64,000 nucleotides of DNA, from assembly GCA_903858935.1 (NCBI GenBank), contig CAIOKO010000191.1, positions 1 to 64,000 of the forward strand. Reading direction: 5' to 3'. Position 1 is the first letter of the stretch. Every line of letters starts with the position of its first letter. Positions 13,989-24,828 of this stretch are shown here, in pieces. A program made the position numbers and the translations under genes. The notes under the pieces are model-generated. The model ran no database searches and was not told the origin of the DNA. It saw only the letters and a program-made list of their open reading frames with translations. This DNA comes from an uncultured Schlesneria sp. GTDB taxonomy: Bacteria; Planctomycetota; Planctomycetia; Planctomycetales; Planctomycetaceae.

Positions 13989-14617
13989 TCGATAAAGCCT
14001 CTATAAAATGCAATTGGGGAATTGGATTCAGGTGGAGTTTTGGGCTGAAAGGAAATCATTCAACAGGACACCGTAGCACCGAATCACGTCGAAAACACGA
14101 GGTTCCACGTGGTGCGACGACAAGTTCTCACCCGCATGGCGTCGGTAGAGGCATACCGCATGCCACGAGTTTCGGCAGAATCTGCGCCTGTGAAAATATT
14201 CGTCCCAACGTTGATTGAGGCTTTGGCTTTGGCGGCATCGCCGATCGTTTTTCTTAAAATCGGACATTGACATCCGGTATAATCCGCATGGCCGGTTTGC
14301 GTACTGGGGTTTATAGAAAGTCGGTCGGGAGGGTTTTTGAAAGTGAGGTGGCGGATCAAGGCATCAATAAATTCGATGATGGGACCGATGAGACGTGTGA
14401 GACGACTCAATTTTATTGGCCTAATGATTCAATGCGCGCCATGAATCCCATTCTTGAATTAAGCCAAACGACCGAATCTCAGGCCGACCATCCAGAAAAA
14501 ACAGTGCTCTTACCGCAAAACGTGTTTGACCAATCATTAGCCGGTCGATTAGTATCAACAACGGCCGATGCGTCGGTCGCCTGCCGGAATCTCCTGCCTG
14601 ACCCTAAGGGCCCGCCT
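13989..14617. other. Intergenic region between divergent genes
   Basis: About 630 bases. The frame from 14267 is open into the DUF1501 gene, but family members begin at the MFRIDV-like position, so this stretch is treated as leader DNA. It holds a small CCACGTGG palindrome near 14108. No RNA or repeat recognised. Confidence 0.45.
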
Positions 14618-15997
14618 ATGTTTCGAATCGATGTTGGATCTACCCGCCGTTACTGTGATGGGATGTCGCGCCGAAGTTTTGTTCAACTCGGTGTCGCGGG
14701 GATGGCGTCGGTTGGGATTCCGCGGATTTTGCGAGCGAAAGAAGCCTCAGTTGAGCGAGGGCATTCGAGTAAAAAGACCAGTGTGATCTTGCTTTGGCTG
14801 GACGGCGGACCAAGTCATCTCGATCTTTATGACCTGAAGCCTCAGGCACCGGCAGAATATCGTGGAATCTGGAATCCGATCCGGACGAATGTCGATGGGA
14901 TCGAGGTCGGCGAGCTATTTCCGTTACAGGCGAAGTGCGCCGATAAGTTCTCGATCATCCGATCTCTACATCACGGCTCAGGCGACCACTTCACGGGTGG
15001 CCATTTTATGCTCACGGGGCGGGGCGGGGTGAGCGGTGCCGCGACGCAAGGAAAATCGCCCTTTGTCGGGTCAATCGCCACAAAAATGACAGGTGCGCGG
15101 CAACCGGGAATGCCCCCATATGTTGCGGTCCCTTATGGAATGAGTATCGGGCTGCGGCCAGGATATTTTGGTGCCAATTATATCGGGGCTTCGCATAATC
15201 CTTTTGAAACCGATGGTGATCCGAACGCGGCCGGCTTTAAAGTCCAGAATATTCAAATGCCTTCCGGTATGACGGTTGATCGATTGGATGACCGCGCTGC
15301 GCTTGCAAAGCATGTTGATCGGCTACGGCGCGATGTCGAGAGCAAGGGAATGCTCGATTCGATGGATCGATTCGATCGCCAGGCGTTGGATCTTGTGACA
15401 GGTCAGGCGGCTCGGACGGCATTTGATCTGGGGTTAGAAGATCCTAAAATTCGTGATCGGTACGGACGTCACAGTTGGGGGCAAAGTACGTTACTGGCTC
15501 GTCGGCTGGTGGAAGCTGGAACCACATTCGTCACCGTCCATTTTGGTGGCTGGGATCATCACTGGGACTTGAAATCAGGGATGGAAAGATATCTGCCGAT
15601 CGTAGATGCGGCGGTTTCTGCGCTGTTTGAAGACTTGTCTCAGCGTGGACTGCTTGATGATGTCCTCGTGATACTCTGTGGTGAGTTCAGTCGAACTCCT
15701 CGTATGAATAACGGGGGTAACGGTGGTCCGCCGCTCAGTATGGGAACTCCGGGTCGCGATCATTGGGGGAATGCGATGTTCTGCCTGATGGGTGGCGGCG
15801 GCGTGCAAGGTGGGCGTATTGTTGGTTCCACAAACAAGTTAGGTGAAGTTCCTCAGGATCGACCTGTCACTCCTGCGGATATTCACCACACGATGTTCCA
15901 TGTGCTTGGAATTGATCCACAGGTTAGTTTCCTTAACCACAGTGGACGACCGACTTCAGCACTGGAACCGGGTTCTGTGATCCAAGAATTGCTGTAA
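14618..15997 (+). CDS. DUF1501 exported protein (sulfatase/phosphatase-like fold)
   Basis: About 459 residues, Tat-type start (MSRRSFVQLGVAGMASVG after MFRIDVGSTRRYCDG). DUF1501 proteins are distant alkaline-phosphatase/sulfatase-fold proteins abundant in planctomycetes, usually paired with DUF1549/DUF1553 cytochrome-type proteins in presumed polymer degradation. Family hallmarks seen: LLWLDGGPSHLDLYDLKP, GDHFTGGHFMLTG, CGEFSRTPRMN, GRDHWGNAMFCLMGGGGVQGG. No DUF1553 partner is next to it. The start at 14618 was chosen because family members begin at this kind of sequence and AAGGG lies upstream; the frame stays open to 14267. Confidence 0.88.
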   Translation: MFRIDVGSTRRYCDGMSRRSFVQLGVAGMASVGIPRILRAKEASVERGHSSKKTSVILLWLDGGPSHLDLYDLKPQAPAEYRGIWNPIRTNVDGIEVGELFPLQAKCADKFSIIRSLHHGSGDHFTGGHFMLTGRGGVSGAATQGKSPFVGSIATKMTGARQPGMPPYVAVPYGMSIGLRPGYFGANYIGASHNPFETDGDPNAAGFKVQNIQMPSGMTVDRLDDRAALAKHVDRLRRDVESKGMLDSMDRFDRQALDLVTGQAARTAFDLGLEDPKIRDRYGRHSWGQSTLLARRLVEAGTTFVTVHFGGWDHHWDLKSGMERYLPIVDAAVSALFEDLSQRGLLDDVLVILCGEFSRTPRMNNGGNGGPPLSMGTPGRDHWGNAMFCLMGGGGVQGGRIVGSTNKLGEVPQDRPVTPADIHHTMFHVLGIDPQVSFLNHSGRPTSALEPGSVIQELL

Positions 15998-16320: not shown

Positions 16321-17328
16321 ATGCGGATTGCACTGGACGCAATGGGCGGGGACTTTGGTCCTCAGCCTAATCTTGACGGAGCGATTGCGGCCCTCAAAGA
16401 GAACCCGGATCTTCATGTGACACTGGTTGGCGATGCGCCATCCCTAGAGATGTTCGTGTCGAAATCTGGTTTTAGCAGCGATCGCTTAACTCTTAAGCCA
16501 GCTGATGGTTGGGTTGAGATGAGCGAAAAGCCGGTTGAGGCGCTGCGCAGCAAGCCTAATTGTTCGATCATTGTTTGCTGGCAGATGATGGCGACCCAGC
16601 AAGTTGATGCAGTGGTCAGTGCCGGTCACACCGGGGCTGTCGTTGCGGCAGGTTTGCGTACGCGTCTGTTCCTTAAGGGTGTCAAAAGGCCTGGGATTGC
16701 TGTCGCGTTGCCCACAACGAAGGGCAAGACCGTTCTGATGGACGTGGGGGCCAATCCCGGTGCTCGTCCGGAGCATCTGGTCCAATACGGGACCATGGGC
16801 TCGATCTACGCCCGTGAAATGCTCGGAATCGAACGGCCAACTGTCGGTATCATGAATATCGGCAGTGAAGACGGCAAGGGGACGGATGACGTGCGCGAAT
16901 CGCTTGCGTTATTCGCAAAGAGCCCGTTTCGAGATCGTTTTATTGGCAATGTTGAAGGTCGCGACCTTTATTCAGGGGGAGCCGACGTTGTCATTTGCGA
17001 GGGTTTCGTGGGAAACGTGCTTCTGAAAGCGGCAGAAGGGATGGTCGACATGCTGATGAAGTCGGTCTCTGCTGAAGTTTTGAGTGCTCTTGATAAAGAA
17101 AAGCCTCAGGCAATTGATGCGTTTCGAAATCTGGGGAAAAAGTTTGAGTACCATGAAGCTGGTGGAGCGCCCTTGATCGGTGTAGATGGGATTGCGATTA
17201 TTTGCCATGGTTCAAGCAATTCGCGATCGATTTATAACGCGCTTCGTGTTGCGACGACGCTGAAAAATCGTCGGATCAACGAACAGATTGTTGAAGAGTT
17301 ATCTCTGGCAGCCATTGCTGCGAGTTGA
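16321..17328 (+). CDS. plsX: Phosphate acyltransferase PlsX
   Basis: 335 residues, full length. PlsX converts acyl-ACP to acyl-phosphate, the donor for PlsY in glycerol-3-phosphate acylation. It opens with the signature MRIALDAMGGDFGPQ and has SAGHTGAVVAAG, ALPTTKGKTVLMDVGANP, NIGSEDGKGTD and VICEGFVGNVLLKAAEG. Second gene of the rpmF-plsX-fabD-acpP-fabF block; the ribosome site (GAGGA) lies in the end of rpmF. Confidence 0.97.
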   Translation: MRIALDAMGGDFGPQPNLDGAIAALKENPDLHVTLVGDAPSLEMFVSKSGFSSDRLTLKPADGWVEMSEKPVEALRSKPNCSIIVCWQMMATQQVDAVVSAGHTGAVVAAGLRTRLFLKGVKRPGIAVALPTTKGKTVLMDVGANPGARPEHLVQYGTMGSIYAREMLGIERPTVGIMNIGSEDGKGTDDVRESLALFAKSPFRDRFIGNVEGRDLYSGGADVVICEGFVGNVLLKAAEGMVDMLMKSVSAEVLSALDKEKPQAIDAFRNLGKKFEYHEAGGAPLIGVDGIAIICHGSSNSRSIYNALRVATTLKNRRINEQIVEELSLAAIAAS

Positions 17329-17460: not shown

Positions 17461-18372
17461 GTGGCTAAGATCGCATTTCTATTTCCAGGTCAAGGGGCGC
17501 AGCACGTCGGGATGGCGAAATCCCTGTCCGCACGTTTTCCTGCTGCGAAGGCGCTCTTCGACCAAGCACGTGAAATCCTTGGGTTCGACCTTGCGTCGAT
17601 ATGTTATGACGGGCCAACAGAGCGTCTCGATACGACCGTAATAAGTCAGCCAGCGTTGTTTGTGAGCAGTCTGGCTGCGTTGGAAATGCTGCGAGCCGAG
17701 CATCCTGAAGTTGTCGACAACTGTGCCATGGTTGCCGGATTGAGTCTCGGTGAGTACACGGCCCTGGTTTTTTCTGGAGCGATGTCATTCGAAGATGGTT
17801 TACGAGTGGTGCAACGGCGCGGCGAAGCGATGCAGCAAGCCGCTGATGCGAACCCATCGGGAATGGTCAGTGCCCTTTTGTTAAACCGCGAACAGGTTGC
17901 CCAGGTCCGGGACGAAGCGTCGGTTGCAGGTCAAATCTGGATTGCAAATTACCTTTGCCCTGGAAACACGGTATTGTCTGGGGAAAAACCCGCGTGTGTT
18001 CGTGCAACTGAATTGATTGAAAAGCTTGGCGGGAGTGCCCGAACACTGGCTGTTGCCGGTGCCTTTCATACGCCTCTGATGGCGACCGCCTGCGGTCAGC
18101 TTGAAGAAGTTCTACGGAAGGTTCAGATTAAAGCGGGACGAATACCTGTCGTATCGAATGTTGATGCAAAAACTCATTCAAATGCCGATGATTTGCAGCA
18201 AATCCTGATAAGGCAGGTGACCCAGCCTGTTTTATGGGAAGACTGCGTTCGCGAGTTGTTGGCGCAGGGGTGCGATCAGTTTTATGAAATTGGCCCTGGT
18301 AAAGTGCTAAAGTCGCTCTTAAAGCGAATTGATCGAAAGATGGATTGCCAGTCAATCAACGATGATGGCTGA
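17461..18372 (+). CDS. fabD: Malonyl-CoA:ACP transacylase FabD
   Basis: 303 residues. It transfers malonyl groups from CoA to ACP for chain elongation. Motifs: FLFPGQGAQHVGM at the start, the nucleophile elbow GLSLGEYTAL, and the catalytic His in GAFHTPLM. GTG start with GGGGAC upstream. Sits 132 bases after plsX; that gap has a weak AAAAACCG/CGGTTTTT inverted repeat. Confidence 0.96.
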   Translation: MAKIAFLFPGQGAQHVGMAKSLSARFPAAKALFDQAREILGFDLASICYDGPTERLDTTVISQPALFVSSLAALEMLRAEHPEVVDNCAMVAGLSLGEYTALVFSGAMSFEDGLRVVQRRGEAMQQAADANPSGMVSALLLNREQVAQVRDEASVAGQIWIANYLCPGNTVLSGEKPACVRATELIEKLGGSARTLAVAGAFHTPLMATACGQLEEVLRKVQIKAGRIPVVSNVDAKTHSNADDLQQILIRQVTQPVLWEDCVRELLAQGCDQFYEIGPGKVLKSLLKRIDRKMDCQSINDDG

Positions 18373-18635: not shown

Positions 18636-18887
18636 GTGGCGTCGTCGACTGAAGAAAAAGTAATTGAAGAAAAAGTGATTGGGATCGTCAGTGAGCAACT
18701 GAATATTCCCAAGGAAGATATTAAGTCTGCCAGCAATTTTGTTGCGGATTTGAAAGCTGATTCGCTCGATCTTGTGGAATTGGTTATGGAATTTGAAGAC
18801 CACTTTGGTGTGCAAATTCCAGAAGCTGATCAAGCGAAGATCATGACCGTAGGCGATGCAGTTAAGTATATCACGGAGAAGCAGTGA
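18636..18887 (+). CDS. acpP: Acyl carrier protein
   Basis: 83 residues. The acyl chain is carried on 4'-phosphopantetheine attached to Ser43 in the conserved ADSLDLVEL motif. The N-terminus has a tandem five-residue repeat (EEKVI twice), a little unusual. GTG start behind a strong AAAGGAG site. A 263-base gap from fabD may hold its own promoter, as is usual for the abundant ACP; its stop is 3 bases before fabF. Confidence 0.97.
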   Translation: MASSTEEKVIEEKVIGIVSEQLNIPKEDIKSASNFVADLKADSLDLVELVMEFEDHFGVQIPEADQAKIMTVGDAVKYITEKQ

Positions 18888-18890
18888 CGG

Positions 18891-20132
18891 ATGTCCAGAC
18901 GCGTGGTAGTGACAGGGATGTCGGTCATCACCGCCCTCGGCTCAGAAATTAATGAGTTTTGGGAACGCCTTTGTGCGGGTAAAAGCGGTGTTGGCCGATT
19001 GGGGCGATTTGATTGCTCCGACTTTAAAGTCAACTTTGGAGGCGAAGTCAAAGACTTTCGTCCCGAAGAGCATTTTGACTCAAAGGAAGCTAAGCGACTG
19101 GACCGATTCAGTCAGTTTGCGCTAGCGGCTGCGCAGAAAGCGATCCGGCAATCTGGTATCGATTTCAAGGCGGTACATGATCCTTATCGTTGCGGCGTGA
19201 TCATAGGAAGCGGTATCGGTGGATTGAACGAGATCGAAGAACAGCATGCAAAGCTGTTTGATCGCGGCCCATCCCGGGTCTCACCATTTATGATTCCAAA
19301 ATTGATGGTGAATGCTGCGAGTGGAAATATTTCGGTCCAGTTCGGTCTTAAAGGGCCAAGCAGCGCTGTTGCCACCGCATGTGCCTCTGCCAGTAATGCA
19401 ATTGGTGACGCATTTCGTCTAATCCAGCACGACGTCGCTGACGTTCTGGTTGCAGGCGGAAGCGAAGCTGCAATTACACCCATGGGTTTATCAGGCTTCG
19501 CACGAATGGGGGCACTGTCGACAAGAAATGACTCTCCTGAGTCAGCTAGTCGCCCGTTTGATCGAGATCGAGACGGCTTTGTGCTCGCAGAGGGTGCAGG
19601 GGTTGTTGTGCTGGAAGAGTTTGAGCATGCAAAAAAGCGAGGAGCCCAGATTTTTGGCGAAGTCCTCGGTTACGGTATGTCGTCAGACGGTTCTCATATG
19701 ACAGCCCCAGACCCAGAGGGGGCAGGGGCCGCTCGTGCGATGAGTTTATCACTTAAAGATGCCAGGCTTTCCGTAGCAGAGATCGAATACATTAATGCAC
19801 ATGGGACAAGTACGCCGCTTGGTGATAAGGCTGAAACCAATGCCATCAAGCGCGTGTTCGAAGCCGAGTCCAAGCGGGTCTGTGTCTCAAGTACAAAAAG
19901 CCAGTTGGGCCACTTGCTTGGGGCATCAGGTGGAGTCGAATTCGTCGTCGCAGTGTTGAGCTTGTTACATCAGGTCATTCCGCCAACCATCAATCTTGAG
20001 AATCCTGATCCTGATTGCGATCTCGACTACGTTCCCAATAAAGCACGTGAAGTTCGCATCAATCGTGTGATGTCGAACAGTTTCGGGTTCGGCGGTCACA
20101 ATGCCTGTTTGGTAGTTGGGCGAGTGAACTGA
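18891..20132 (+). CDS. fabF: Beta-ketoacyl-ACP synthase II
   Basis: 413 residues, full length. It condenses malonyl-ACP with acyl-ACP. The Cys-His-His triad is complete: Cys164 in VATACASASNAIG, His in NAHGTSTPLGD and His in KSQLGHLLGASGG. It starts 3 bases after acpP. The following gene is a homologue that lacks the Cys. Confidence 0.96.
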   Translation: MSRRVVVTGMSVITALGSEINEFWERLCAGKSGVGRLGRFDCSDFKVNFGGEVKDFRPEEHFDSKEAKRLDRFSQFALAAAQKAIRQSGIDFKAVHDPYRCGVIIGSGIGGLNEIEEQHAKLFDRGPSRVSPFMIPKLMVNAASGNISVQFGLKGPSSAVATACASASNAIGDAFRLIQHDVADVLVAGGSEAAITPMGLSGFARMGALSTRNDSPESASRPFDRDRDGFVLAEGAGVVVLEEFEHAKKRGAQIFGEVLGYGMSSDGSHMTAPDPEGAGAARAMSLSLKDARLSVAEIEYINAHGTSTPLGDKAETNAIKRVFEAESKRVCVSSTKSQLGHLLGASGGVEFVVAVLSLLHQVIPPTINLENPDPDCDLDYVPNKAREVRINRVMSNSFGFGGHNACLVVGRVN

Positions 20133-20218: not shown

Positions 20219-21559
20219 GTGGCCGCCAATGAGCACCAAATCGTGACCAGATCCTCAGAGAATCGGCAAGTTGTTATCACCGGCGTTGGCATCGTCAGCC
20301 CGATTGGCATCGGTGTTGATGCCTTCTGGGATAGCCTGTCTGCGGGCCGTTCCGGAGTTCGGCACGCTGGGTTGTTTCCCGGATTCGCGGCTCCCGACGG
20401 TGTGGGTGCTGAAGTTCGCGATTTCACAGATGAATCTGCTCGCAAAGTCTACCTGAAAGAGCAGCGCAAAAACCTTAAGGCGATGTGTCGCGAAATTCAA
20501 TTGGGCGTCGCTTCAGCTCTATTGGCATTGCAGAATTCTGAGATCGATCTCAGTCAGATCGATCACGAACGGCTGGGCGTCGAATTCGGTGCGAATTTAA
20601 TGCTCAGTCCTCCGGAAGTGTTATTGGAAGGATGTGTGGCGTGCTGCGACGAAGGGACAACACGCTTTCAAACGACACAGTGGGGGCAGATGGGGCTGAA
20701 CAAGCTTGAGCCGTTGTGGTTATTGAGATATCTCCCGAACATGCCGGCCTGTCACATCAGTATCTCGGCCGATGCACGAGGACCAAGTAATTCCCTGACG
20801 CTGGATGATGCTTCGGGTAATACCGTGATTGGTGAAGCGATGCGGATCATTCTTCGTGGTTCCGCTGACATGATGATTGTCGGAGTGACTGGAACCACTC
20901 TGCACCCTATCAAGACATTACATCAGGCATTGTGGAACGATCTTGCGAGAACTCCAGACGCGCCTGATAGCCGCGCTCGACCATTCGATCTGAATCGATC
21001 GGGGCGAGTTGTCGGAGAAGGATCTTGCTCCTTTATTCTGGAAGATCAGGAACATGCCACGAAACGTGGCGCCAAGATCTGGGGGCGTGTTCTTGGGACC
21101 GGTTCATCATGTGTGACGAGCCCTGACCAGAAGGCCAATTATCGCTTGGCTTTAGCCAACGCGATGCGTGGCGCACTGCGAAGTGCAGGTCTTCGGGTCG
21201 ATCAGATTGGCCATATTAACGCACATGGCTTGGGAACTATCGACGTTGATATTGCAGAATCACAAGCGATTCTGGACGTGTTCGGAGACGAATTAGGTCG
21301 ACGTATTCCCGTCACGGCTCCGAAGAGTTTTCTTGGCAATTCTGGTGCGGGATCTGGATTGCTGGAATTGGCGGCATCGGTCATCGCCCTTACTCATGGA
21401 GTGATTCCGCATACTTTGAACTACGATACACCTGATCCAGAATGCCCGTTAAACGTGGTCTCTGGGCAGCCGCTGGCGACTACTAATCGTATCGTCCTCA
21501 GTATCAACGTCACTCGCATTGGCCAGGCAGCCGCCTCGATTGTTGAAGTCAGTGCGTGA
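20219..21559 (+). CDS. KAS-II-like protein lacking the catalytic Cys (chain-length-factor-like)
   Basis: 446 residues with a thiolase-fold ketoacyl-synthase pattern from end to end (VVITGVGIVSPIGIGVDAFW at the start, NAHGLGTIDVD, PKSFLGNSGAGSG). Aligned to FabF next door, the catalytic Cys164 becomes Asp197 (LTLDDASGN for ATACASASN) and the second His becomes Asn; the first His is kept. It therefore should not condense acyl chains by the normal route. By analogy with chain-length factors (KS-beta, Cys to Gln) it could be a partner of FabF or a decarboxylase; both are inference. GTG start at 20219, no strong ribosome site, 86 bases after fabF. Confidence 0.88.
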   Translation: MAANEHQIVTRSSENRQVVITGVGIVSPIGIGVDAFWDSLSAGRSGVRHAGLFPGFAAPDGVGAEVRDFTDESARKVYLKEQRKNLKAMCREIQLGVASALLALQNSEIDLSQIDHERLGVEFGANLMLSPPEVLLEGCVACCDEGTTRFQTTQWGQMGLNKLEPLWLLRYLPNMPACHISISADARGPSNSLTLDDASGNTVIGEAMRIILRGSADMMIVGVTGTTLHPIKTLHQALWNDLARTPDAPDSRARPFDLNRSGRVVGEGSCSFILEDQEHATKRGAKIWGRVLGTGSSCVTSPDQKANYRLALANAMRGALRSAGLRVDQIGHINAHGLGTIDVDIAESQAILDVFGDELGRRIPVTAPKSFLGNSGAGSGLLELAASVIALTHGVIPHTLNYDTPDPECPLNVVSGQPLATTNRIVLSINVTRIGQAAASIVEVSA

Positions 21560-21775: not shown

Positions 21776-23023
21776 TTGCGCTGGATACGTCTCGCACCGA
21801 TGACCGCCGAGTCGCTCGTTGTTTGCGTGGCGGTTTACTTAGCGAGCGTTTTTCAGGCGATCGCAGATCGAGAACCATTCGAGGAAGTCCAGCGCTCCTG
21901 GGGGGCGATTTGTTTATTACATCAGCCCGCGATTCATGATGGAGTACGACGTTCGTTGGATTCCGATCTCTATGGTCCATTTGACGTCTGGTCCCGGGAA
22001 TGGTGGCGAATTCCGATAACGGCCTTTCATCATGCCAATTTGATTCATCTCATGGTGAACCTTGTTGGAGCATGGTATCTGGGGTATCGCCTTGAGCAGC
22101 GATGGGGCAGCTTCACAATGGCTCTCTTCCTGATTCCGGCGATTTGTGTTCCGATCATGTCCGAGCTTTGTTTCGGCAAGGCGGTTTTGGGGTTTTCCGG
22201 CGCGACTTGCGCCATGCTAGGAACGCTGGCGGTTTTGAGGCATTTTGATGACAAATTGGCCAGGTCAATTCCCTCAGAGGCGGTCGGATTTGGTGTCGGA
22301 ATGATTGCGCTGGGCTGGCTGTTGACGGTTTTTGACGTGTTTGATTGCGCGAACATCGCTCATTTGACAGGTTTCTGTTACGGCGCTGTGATCGCATTTT
22401 TGACGGACGGCCCGCTTCGACACGTTTTCTTACTTCGAATCAGCGTCTGTCTGGTTCATATATGGTTGCTGCCGGGGTTGCTTCTCGTCATGCACCCCTA
22501 TTGGATTGGGCGGTATCACTGGTACCAGGCGACGTCTGTGAGTAGCCCGCAACGTGCCGAAAGGTTTTTGGAACGAGCGATCAACTGTGATTCGTCGCTT
22601 GCCGGAGCATGGCTGCTGTGGTCTCAGTCTGCTGAACGGAGAAGCGACTTACCTGAGGCGTGGCAACGACTAATCGAGGGAATCTCACACAATCCGTCAA
22701 ATCCGCCTTTAATGGATAGTACACGTCGACTGTGGCGGCATCTGGATTCACGTCAACGTCGAGGAGCAGAGCGTGTCCTGGCGCGGATATTGGGGGCGCG
22801 CTCTGGTGCCTGGTTGATTCAGATACGCAAAGAAGTTTACGAAAAAAGCATCGATTCCGGTGACGAATCAACGACATTCCATCCAAAGGTTGAGCTTTCG
22901 GAATGGCTGCTCGATCAGAAGATTTTGCTTCAACCCCTGAGGATTACTGAAGAACCATCTGATCCGCCAGGGAGTTTCAATGAAAATCAGTTCGACGATG
23001 CAGCGGAAGGGCAGCGGCTTTAA
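21776..23023 (+). CDS. Rhomboid-family intramembrane serine protease with C-terminal extension
   Basis: 415 residues, with hydrophobic helices over about 10-215 and a soluble tail. Rhomboid motifs are intact: HLMVN (His91, Asn95), the nucleophile GFSG (Ser141) and the His in CANIAHLTGFCYG (His196). It should cleave membrane helices of unknown substrates. The tail (about 240-340) has a TPR-like helical pattern (RAERFLERAINCDSSLAGAW, SDLPEAWQRLIEG), so it may bind partners. A TTG start at 21776 has a GGAG site at the right spacing; ATG 21800 is the alternative. Its place within a lipid gene block is notable. Confidence 0.85.
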   Translation: MRWIRLAPMTAESLVVCVAVYLASVFQAIADREPFEEVQRSWGAICLLHQPAIHDGVRRSLDSDLYGPFDVWSREWWRIPITAFHHANLIHLMVNLVGAWYLGYRLEQRWGSFTMALFLIPAICVPIMSELCFGKAVLGFSGATCAMLGTLAVLRHFDDKLARSIPSEAVGFGVGMIALGWLLTVFDVFDCANIAHLTGFCYGAVIAFLTDGPLRHVFLLRISVCLVHIWLLPGLLLVMHPYWIGRYHWYQATSVSSPQRAERFLERAINCDSSLAGAWLLWSQSAERRSDLPEAWQRLIEGISHNPSNPPLMDSTRRLWRHLDSRQRRGAERVLARILGARSGAWLIQIRKEVYEKSIDSGDESTTFHPKVELSEWLLDQKILLQPLRITEEPSDPPGSFNENQFDDAAEGQRL

Positions 23024-23355
23024 AGTTTCCGCCGACCAATATACTTTGAGAAGTCAGCGGCGATTGGCCAGAATTCTCAGCGTGGTAAGCAAAAAAATGA
23101 ATCTGATTCGTCATGCGCCATGCATTCGGCATAATCTGGCGTCGAGTTGTTCATCGGCAACGATTGCGCCTCATTTACTGAAAGCTCCAAATGGCGAAAC
23201 TTTTTTTGCCACTTGATGTTGCACACGGTTTTAGTTGTCAGAAGACGATTGAAATGATCTCTCGAATCGAGTTAGACTAAGTTTCGTCTTTGGAACGATT
23301 TTGTTCCCGCACATATGCTTGCGAGACAGCTGCCTCCCCTGCGGAACATCATCCT
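23024..23355. other. Intergenic region, no supported gene
   Basis: About 330 bases between the rhomboid and SDR genes. A frame from 22980 overlaps the end of the rhomboid gene behind a GGAG-like site but its product looks non-protein-like, and it is not called. Confidence 0.45.
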
Positions 23356-24828
23356 ATGAGTTATCATCTGTTGACCGGGGCTACCGGCCTGCTCGGTAAC
23401 TATTTACTTCGCGACCTTTTGATTCGCGAGATCCCAGTTGCTGTTGTTGTCAGGCCGACTCGCAAGCAAACCGCTCGACAGCGAATCGAATCGGCGTTGT
23501 GTCAGTGGGATGCGGAATACGGTAGACCACTGTCACGGCCTGTTGTCATGGAAGGTGATATTTCTCTGCCAGACCTCGGTCTGGATGCTGTGGACCTGCG
23601 TTGGGCTGCGGAGTACTGTTCGGCGGTCATTCACAATGCAGCAAGTTTGACGTTTCATTCGACGAGTACCGCTGGCGAGCCTTGGCGATCGAATATTGAA
23701 GGAACACGAAACGTTCTTGAATTCTGTCGAAACGCGGGAATTCGCAAGTTCCACCATGTTTCCACCGCCTACGTCGCAGGTCTGAGACAGGGCAAAGTTC
23801 TTGAAACCGAACTGGATGTTGGCCAGCAGTTCTCGAACGATTATGAATGCAGCAAGCTCCAGTCAGAGACGCTTGTAAGAGAGGCTGAGTTTCTGGACGA
23901 ACCGACAGTCTTCCGTCCAGGCATAATCATAGGTGATTCACAAACCGGACTGACAACCACGTACCACGGGTATTACGCGGCATTACAACTCGTACATACC
24001 ATTGTTCGATCAATACCTCCAAACGAGACTGGGCTGGTTGGAGGGAACGAGGTGCGGTTGACTCTGTCCGGAAACGAAACCAAACATCTGGTTCCCGTCG
24101 ACTGGGTCTCAGCGGTGATGGCACACGTGATCACACATGCGAAATGGCATGGAAAGACGTATCACCTGACACCGAAGCATCCCGTGACGGTCCGTTTGCT
24201 TCGGGACGTTCTGGAACAGTCTGCGGGTTTTTACGGTGCCACGTTTTGCGGGGCAGGCGAACGACCCCAGAATGCCTCGGAATCCGAAGTTCTCTTTTAT
24301 GAGCACATCCGAGTTTACAACTCGTATTGGAAAATGGACCCTGAATTCGATACGTCCAATACCGATTTGGCACTGCCTCAACTTCCATGCCCTCATGTCA
24401 ATCGAGAATTGCTGTTGAAGTTGTCTCGTATCGCCATAGAAAGCGGCTTTCCCACTCCCAGCAAGAAGCCGATTGAACCGGAATTCGACGCTGAAAATCA
24501 CCTCAGGCCGCTAATTGATCACGCGGGAAATATGACGTTGAGTAATCTGGATGAACGTTTTCTCGGGCTAGATATCGTCGGCCATGGTGGCGGCCAATGG
24601 CAACTTGTCGTTCGAGGAGAGGAATTGATATCTGTTGAGACTGGACTGCATGCCGATCGATTGGCAACGTGCAGGGTCGATATTGGAACCTATGCTGATC
24701 TGGTAAGTGGTCGGACCACTTGGCGACAAGCATTTTTGACGAAATCGGCTGAACTGAGTGGGAATGGGCGAAGCGTGGCTGAGTATGCGACGATTCTTGA
24801 TCAACTTGCCTCTTTGTCCGTGAAGTGA
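23356..24828 (+). CDS. Thioester-reductase-like SDR fused to an SCP2-like lipid-binding domain
   Basis: About 490 residues. The N-terminal part is an extended SDR of the NAD-binding-4/thioester-reductase type: LLTGATGLLGNYLL (GxxGxxG), VIHNAASLTFH, HHVSTAYVAG, and NDYECSKLQSE (Tyr-x-x-x-Lys). These enzymes reduce acyl thioesters to aldehydes or alcohols. The last 110 residues (MTLSNLDERFLGLDIVGHGG, WQLVVRGEELISVETG, ATCRVDIGTYADLVSGRTTW) have the pattern of SCP2 sterol-carrier domains, which bind lipids. Position after acpP-fabF supports an acyl-ACP or acyl-CoA substrate (inference). Start at ATG 23356 was preferred to TTG 23290. Confidence 0.8.
   Translation: MSYHLLTGATGLLGNYLLRDLLIREIPVAVVVRPTRKQTARQRIESALCQWDAEYGRPLSRPVVMEGDISLPDLGLDAVDLRWAAEYCSAVIHNAASLTFHSTSTAGEPWRSNIEGTRNVLEFCRNAGIRKFHHVSTAYVAGLRQGKVLETELDVGQQFSNDYECSKLQSETLVREAEFLDEPTVFRPGIIIGDSQTGLTTTYHGYYAALQLVHTIVRSIPPNETGLVGGNEVRLTLSGNETKHLVPVDWVSAVMAHVITHAKWHGKTYHLTPKHPVTVRLLRDVLEQSAGFYGATFCGAGERPQNASESEVLFYEHIRVYNSYWKMDPEFDTSNTDLALPQLPCPHVNRELLLKLSRIAIESGFPTPSKKPIEPEFDAENHLRPLIDHAGNMTLSNLDERFLGLDIVGHGGGQWQLVVRGEELISVETGLHADRLATCRVDIGTYADLVSGRTTWRQAFLTKSAELSGNGRSVAEYATILDQLASLSVK

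Follow-up and report, generated by a model that had tools for sequence, protein, structure and literature searches.

The gene at positions 20219..21559 (forward strand) of the 64,000-nucleotide stretch of uncultured Schlesneria sp. DNA analysed here (the window) encodes a 446-residue protein, P0001, with a GTG start. Its open reading frame, profile matches, alignment, tree position and AlphaFold2 model identify it as a KSβ-like acid ketosynthase (acid KS), and from the sequence comparisons we consider it probable that P0001 is a KSβ, i.e., a ketosynthase-fold subunit that lacks condensing activity of its own and pairs with a catalytic ketosynthase. In the heterodimer that we infer, P0001 would provide the basic surface for ACP docking and would help to form the acyl pocket of its partner. 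The candidate partners are a KSα encoded in trans on contig C159 of the same genome, the FabF encoded by the adjacent gene, or both. Against this assignment, the P0001 gene is not located next to a KSα gene in the window genome (G000), and the neighbouring FabF, itself complete, does not require a partner.

P0001 begins 86 bp 3′ of the end of fabF, in the gene order plsX–fabD–acpP–fabF–P0001, all on the forward strand. The upstream genes are assigned by curated profiles: plsX (16321..17328; TIGR00182, 299.6 bits against a cut-off of 243.4), fabD (17461..18372; TIGR00128, 287.5 bits against 260.9), acpP (18636..18887; TIGR00517, 96 bits against 70.45) and fabF (18891..20132; TIGR03150, 628 bits against 493.75), the last of which encodes a canonical KAS II. 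P0001 matches both halves of the ketosynthase fold in Pfam (PF00109, 97 bits; PF02801, 77 bits) and stays below the NCBIfam cut-offs for FabF (262.9 against 387, and 260.3 against 493.75 bits). FabF is nearest to P0001 in both fold and sequence, with 33% identity to the adjacent copy. The AlphaFold2 model has a pLDDT of 92.6, and its best fold matches, FabF (Z 59.6) and the actinorhodin CLF (1TQY chain B; Z 58.2), are nearly tied, such that the fold comparison did not separate FabF from CLF. A CerJ-type (KAS III-like) identity finds no support among the Pfam matches of P0001, which are PF00109 and PF02801 only and include no KAS III-type domain. As for the flanking genes, a DUF1501 protein (315 bits) is encoded 5′ of plsX at window positions 14267-15997 (forward strand), and this position is kept in close congeners. 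A thioester-reductase-like protein (23290-24828, forward strand; NAD_binding_4, 159.7 bits), which could use an acyl-ACP product as substrate, is encoded two genes 3′ of P0001, with a rhomboid-family protein (21776-23023) in between. Of 18 loci, just those of G001, G004, and G005 have this pair behind the acid KS.

The adjacent FabF has its Cys-His-His residues intact and keeps the ACP-docking residues. When the two proteins are aligned, Asp197 of P0001 (GAT, 20807..20809) is found at the FabF nucleophile Cys163/164, and Asn374 (21338..21340) at catalytic His340 (His341 of the adjacent FabF). Lys369 (21323..21325), equivalent to Lys335, is kept, as is His336 (in an NAHG motif, 21224..21226), which corresponds to catalytic His303 and is not kept family-wide. 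The alignment agrees with the initial annotation, where Cys164 was read as replaced by Asp197, the third-position His as replaced by Asn, and the other His as kept. In addition to these changes, the C-terminal gate loop is lost, with GFGG replaced by TRIGQ (Gly435-Gln436, 21521..21526). Trp167 (20717..20719; all of these codons are on the forward strand) is located at FabF Phe133, which we take to extend into the pocket of the other subunit; Trp is present here in 66 of 67 acid-KS rows and in all five Cys-bearing KSβ rows. P0001 thus lacks the features that mark FabF/KAS II membership, i.e., Cys163, the second His, the GFGG loop with Phe400, and the curated score. The amide of Phe400 forms part of the FabF oxyanion hole (PMC7138838).

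An acid at the nucleophile site is shared by all 80 relatives inspected (70 Glu and 10 Asp), which are the best 80 of at least 588 confirmed stretches and were chosen, in a scan of named genome contigs, by two peptide patterns that leave the active site out. Apart from one titled merely bacterium, these are planctomycetes by title. Over 131 aligned rows, the site holds Glu in 89, Asp in 34, Cys in 5, Ser in 2, and Asn in 1, the Cys rows being the window FabF and four Cys-ketosynthases from the f20 group. The first His is present in 107 of the 131 rows and is replaced by Asn, Cys, Gln, Phe, Ser, Thr, Val, or Leu in 24, with the acid mostly staying; the second is Asn in 95. The acid is therefore better conserved than the His pair. 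The proteins' own acyl pocket is altered: Ala193 is replaced by Arg or Lys in 51 of 67 acid KS, Gly198 by Lys, Arg, Asp, or Ser in 49 of 67, and Phe202 is found in 3 of 67. The gate loop is gone together with its Phe400, and 31 columns of the acid-KS alignment are invariant. We regard the carboxylate at the dead nucleophile site as most likely structural, and a salt bridge within this site would be a likelier reason for the kept acid than carboxylate catalysis, although His303, Lys335, and Glu349, which are retained in most members, leave room for residual chemistry. One relative (L045/L175; G022:C10:860665-861906) carries Ser in the nucleophile position and retains both His.

Outside the window's own family, planctomycete families have the acid KS in a gene cluster with the order DH–(KR)–ACP–DH–KSβ–KSα. 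The dehydratases (DH) are FabA-like, a KR is often present and missing from some clusters, KSα is an intact Cys-ketosynthase, and an alpha/beta hydrolase and a GH3 enzyme often join the cluster. Such a highly reducing type II PKS gene set, with KS, KSβ, KR, DHs, and ACP in one cluster, was found in several families. Where the flank is long enough, KSα lies at most 2 kb 3′ of the cluster-borne acid KS at 24 of 25 loci, or in 23 of 24 groups once near-copies are merged at 85% identity; unmerged counts, here and below, hold copies from genomes present both as G entries and as named contigs. The single miss, L213, has KSα too, with an ORF called too long, and L016 and L024 are partial loci. This arrangement lends support to the analogy with KS-α/KS-β pairing that had been drawn from the placement of P0001 behind acpP-fabF.

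The corresponding block in the window genome, on contig C159 (L233:8143-13232), reads DH–KR–ACP–DH–KSα–hydrolase and contains no KSβ; its KSα is 60% identical to the reference KSα. Because this cluster lacks a KSβ, P0001 looks like a relocated one. The cluster without KSβ also occurs in ten relatives; two of these, G022 and G027, have acid KS that fall with Pirellulales-titled rows in a 116-row tree. G018 has KSα alone in the stretch examined, and in G016 the contig ends there. Lineages with such a cluster have acid-KS genes elsewhere in the genome. No enoyl reductase was recognised in the C159 block, which possibly belongs to an undescribed polyene or unsaturated lipid pathway, and no GH3 match was found in the window genome; the congener G012 has a GH3 gene ~8 kb from its KSα. 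Two congeners, G002 and G007, carry a second KSα-like gene beside an intact FabF-like KS (L284:7769-9102 and L285:7871-9335), both with Cys. In the window genome, contig C91 (L236:7529-10949) has two FabH-like genes (GCSG, HQAN) flanking a FabG-like gene, as well as two small, ACP-sized ORFs of 79-89 residues, and may be a further type II cluster.

A tree of 106 ketosynthases places all 67 Cys-less KSβ rows (65 with Asp or Glu, one Ser, and one Asn) in one clade with an SH-aLRT support of 99.9; together with the five Cys-bearing relatives, they form a clade of 72 (99.4). The 23 KSα rows make up a single clade (97). The acid KS of the window's type join the cluster-borne acid KS that partner KSα and not FabF, which rules out that P0001 is a recent duplicate of the adjacent fabF, and the two Streptomyces CLFs branch with their KSα and FabF, away from the acid-KS family. 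The trees are quick ones with SH-aLRT as the only support, and the 106-row set was thinned and leaves out the long-branched window ketosynthases C10 and C258. The 116-row tree agrees, although a separate group of unlinked acid rows has a support of only 45 there. Cluster-borne acid KS diverge early in this tree, consistent with a cluster origin followed by relocation; given the midpoint root, this order is suggestive.

A basic helix of P0001 (residues 80-91, KEQRKNLKAMCR, 20456..20491, forward strand) aligns over the FabF docking residues 65, 68, and 69, and is basic at the first two positions and not at the third. The ACP is bound in E. coli FabF by Lys65, Arg68, and Lys69, and in FabF and FabB alike the unloaded monomer supplies most of the ACP contacts (PMC7138838, Fig. 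3 legend). Positions 65 and 68 are both basic in 64 of 67 acid KS, in all five Cys-bearing KSβ, and in all seven FabF, but in none of the 23 KSα, although Cys and both His are intact in every one of the latter. In a larger set, position 65 is basic in 145/145 and position 68 in 142/145 acid KS, compared with 10/28 and 4/28 for KSα, a count that leaves out L094, six second copies, and L277; the FabF docking residues are basic in 29/29. Since the contacts come from the unloaded monomer, the live subunit would use the docking surface of its dead partner, while its own would serve nobody. The docking split is therefore as would be expected of an obligate heterodimer.

Some findings count against this reading. 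Position 69 is basic in none of the 145 acid KS compared with all 29 FabF, and FabF interface region 2 (Arg127, Lys128, and Arg206) is not retained in the acid KS. The helix register changes with the aligner used, one alignment setting KEQRK on KEQRK and MAFFT not, so the net charge of the docking helix, +3 to +5 in acid KS and -5 to +3 in KSα, is more dependable than any single docking position. Two Streptomyces KSα rows retain basic docking residues, and the split is thus not a general mark of KS/CLF pairs. Among 12 KSα of lineages with the KSβ-less cluster, position 65 is basic in 8, position 68 in 1, and position 69 in none. At FabF position 108, KSα has Glu (19) or Lys (4).

Possible intermediates are found in four f20 genomes outside the class, where KSβ has the basic helix and the Trp, yet an intact Cys-His-His-GFGG set, and where the KSα beside this Cys-bearing KSβ has no basic helix. 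A fifth f20-type case, G407, comes from a short contig. The KSβ Cys is Asp in f51, where the rest is intact, and Asn in f37, and the KSβ of f80, f53, and f62 have Glu or Asp at the Cys site. With docking already split and the Cys still present in f20, the division of roles seems to precede loss of the nucleophile, and f20 seems, on its residues, to retain an earlier stage of the KSα/KSβ split. The course of events might accordingly be pictured as follows. An ancestor of these planctomycetes would have had a highly reducing type II cluster of fatty-acid-like make-up in which KSβ originated, with docking divided between the subunits first and the Cys of one subunit lost later. In the window lineage and in Pirellulales, the KSβ gene would then have moved out of the cluster, and one descendant would have come to rest behind acpP-fabF (P0001) and another elsewhere (C44, a type of acid KS with Glu at the nucleophile site and 48% identity to the window type).

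P0001 is under purifying selection. Compared with its three nearest congeners, it has a dN/dS of 0.044-0.053 (0.088 against G008, the remaining pairs being saturated), whereas FabF has 0.018-0.027 in the comparison with these three. With such low values, chance or decay is unlikely. An acid KS is present in 30 of 30 near genomes (29 by best matches with residues read, and G024 from its locus), and so is KSα. A profile of the acid KS at E 1e-90 matches in 198 of 198 genomes of the class, a threshold that does not split acid from Cys ketosynthases, with residues read for a minority of these matches. In samples of the phylum, there are matches in 14 of 149 genomes (E 1e-70) and 35 of 294 (E 1e-125, class members included), and those beyond the class include Cys-bearing f20 members; the family is thus patchy outside the class. 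Among plasmid records, 24 have matches, all with less than 60% identity, and the 20 listed ones are annotated as fabF or beta-ketoacyl synthase. The acid KS of L095 (CAMDPK010000179.1), titled Candidatus Kuenenia stuttgartiensis, groups with Planctomycetaceae-titled rows, and this MAG contig may be mis-binned or mislabelled. Matches to an anammox S-layer model were weak and far below its cut-off, and f80 is therefore not called anammox.

Which ketosynthase would be the partner of P0001 is a matter of weighing position against descent. For the C159 KSα speak descent and its missing docking surface; for FabF speaks position. A sub-case of the KSβ assignment, in which C44 stayed with KSα in trans and P0001 joined the core fatty acid operon to pair with FabF, appears plausible, if somewhat short of probable. 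Of 63 loci with 5.5 kb or more of upstream sequence, 30 have fabF directly 5′ of the P0001-type acid KS (24 of 55 after merging), with gaps of 31-1947 bp. These linked loci come both from Planctomycetaceae and from contigs titled Pirellulales, L143 being one. In the C44 subgroup, 0 of 16 loci are linked in this way, and in a third unlinked subgroup 0 of 9 (0/25 for the two). The fabF linkage noticed initially thus holds within the P0001 subgroup and does not extend to the other two, and even in the former the linkage is missing from about half of the loci. Furthermore, 19 genomes of the window's family among the 30 each carry a P0001-type and a C44-type acid KS, and at FabF positions 107 and 265 changes are seen in the P0001 subgroup but not in the C44 subgroup. 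FabF itself, however, with its uniformly basic docking residues, shows no sign of specialisation, and in the tree the family does not join it. Of the original suggestion that FabF is the partner, the argument from position stands, but the cluster relatives pair with KSα, and it is KSα, not FabF, that lacks the docking residues. C44 may serve one of KSα and FabF, and P0001 the other.

Other functions have to be weighed against a non-catalytic KSβ. KSQ enzymes have Gln at the nucleophile site and retain both His. P0001 could be a KSQ-like malonyl-ACP decarboxylase that makes an acetyl-ACP primer, with an acid in place of Gln and with His336 and Asn374 as in KAS III, and the frequent presence of the first His, the mostly kept Lys335 and Glu349, and the basic docking surface would suit this role. 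Asp197 and Asn374 depart from the KSQ pattern, however, and a negative charge beside the malonyl carboxylate would be unfavourable. Both His have been called indispensable for decarboxylation (PMC2649909), but the first is replaced in 24 of the 131 rows while the acid mostly stays, and the second is usually Asn. Three FabH-like proteins with GCSG and HQAN motifs also exist for priming. With the needed His residues not conserved and FabH-like genes present, the decarboxylase proposed in the initial annotation is weakened, and we consider it unlikely. The same three genes leave P0001 unsupported as a stand-in for a missing FabH, although all FabH-like matches of the window genome are below the TIGR00747 cut-off. 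The better conservation of Asp/Glu than of either His, together with Lys335 and, mostly, Glu349, could instead point to a new enzyme with the carboxylate as nucleophile or base (in acyl transfer, hydrolysis, or the recruitment of a non-standard acyl group, the last of these having been suggested by Rattray et al. for the anammox paralogues), and a different substrate has already been proposed for such paralogues (PMC2649909). This reading has to contend with charged or changed pocket residues, the loss of the gate loop and Phe400, the interchange of Asp and Glu despite their different carboxylate placement, and the member with Ser, and is improbable. Finally, the lost catalytic residues and an evolution faster than that of FabF are what a decaying pseudogene or a passive fabF duplicate might display, but a dN/dS of ~0.05 and the acid KS in all 30 genomes effectively rule this out, and the 31 invariant columns and the position in the tree, which is not that of a FabF sister, are likewise contrary to it. 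We therefore retain the non-catalytic KSβ as the best explanation.

Inactive subunits that support an active one are known from other thiolase-fold enzymes, such as PqsB of PqsBC. PqsB belongs to the KAS III lineage and to a different pathway from that of P0001, and the comparison is one of working principle. The CLF of type II PKS (actinorhodin, 1TQY chain B) resembles the acid KS in having a KS fold without nucleophile, a gene beside that of a Cys-KS, and a kept Lys335. Unlike P0001, both Streptomyces CLFs have Gln at the Cys site, and the Act CLF has lost both His; in addition, they lie on a separate branch of the tree, and their KSα keep the docking residues. The ishigamide Iga11-Iga12 and aryl polyene ApeO-ApeC systems are similar to the planctomycete clusters in combining KS-CLF with KR, dehydratases, and ACP. 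In Iga11-Iga12 the ACP contacts the CLF, the Glu or Lys at FabF position 108 of planctomycete KSα recalls Asp113 of Iga11 (a putative equivalence), and ApeC is about half the size of its partner (PMC8358021). Compared by description, the planctomycete clusters differ by their GH3 enzyme and hydrolase, neither of which appears in the accounts of the Iga and Ape systems considered here. As for FabF (KAS II), P0001 is closest to it but has neither the Cys, the second His, the gate loop, nor the curated score.

The closest precedent comes from the same phylum and has the same Cys replacement. Rattray et al. in 2009 described Rhodopirellula (R.) baltica FabF paralogues with Glu163 (NP_866153) and Asp163 (NP_865682), which grouped with odd Kuenenia paralogues and for which another substrate, possibly a ladderane moiety, was proposed (PMC2649909). 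Our observation of the missing Cys is therefore a rediscovery, with the function having been left open there. Glu163, His298, Leu300, Asp302, Lys328, Asn333, Glu342, and Pro392 of NP_866153 match whichever residues rank first or second in frequency among the Pirellulales-type rows, a kinship drawn from the published residues. In the sections of that report bearing on these paralogues, which drew on few genomes and put forward the idea of recruitment for ladderanes, neither gene pairing nor a KSβ reading is given (PMC2649909). Planctomycetes have been named among the phyla with KS-CLF pairs (PMC10132072), and in the open-access literature, as far as its text was accessible, we found no assignment of a KSβ role to these acid-KS proteins.

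The wider scenario, in which the planctomycete KSα/KSβ arose independently of the actinobacterial CLFs, with docking and catalysis split before the Cys was lost, and in which one KSβ was recruited to the core operon such that the primary synthase became a FabF-KSβ heterodimer, is tentative, and taken as a whole we find it rather doubtful. If it is true, the neighbours kuste3605/3606 and kuste2804/2805 of the anammox ladderane clusters, where FabF genes are found beside non-canonical FabF or FabB genes (PMC4790861), would be KSα/KSβ pairs and not independent enzymes. The KSβ assignment proposes a testable function for a family that is present in all 30 near genomes and was without a function in the 2009 report. 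It also shows a possible stepwise rise of a two-subunit ketosynthase, surviving intermediate included, and suggests a lipid or polyene pathway, apparently undescribed, with its KSα present in the same 30 genomes. The odd FabF paralogues of anammox bacteria are likewise worth viewing as pairs.
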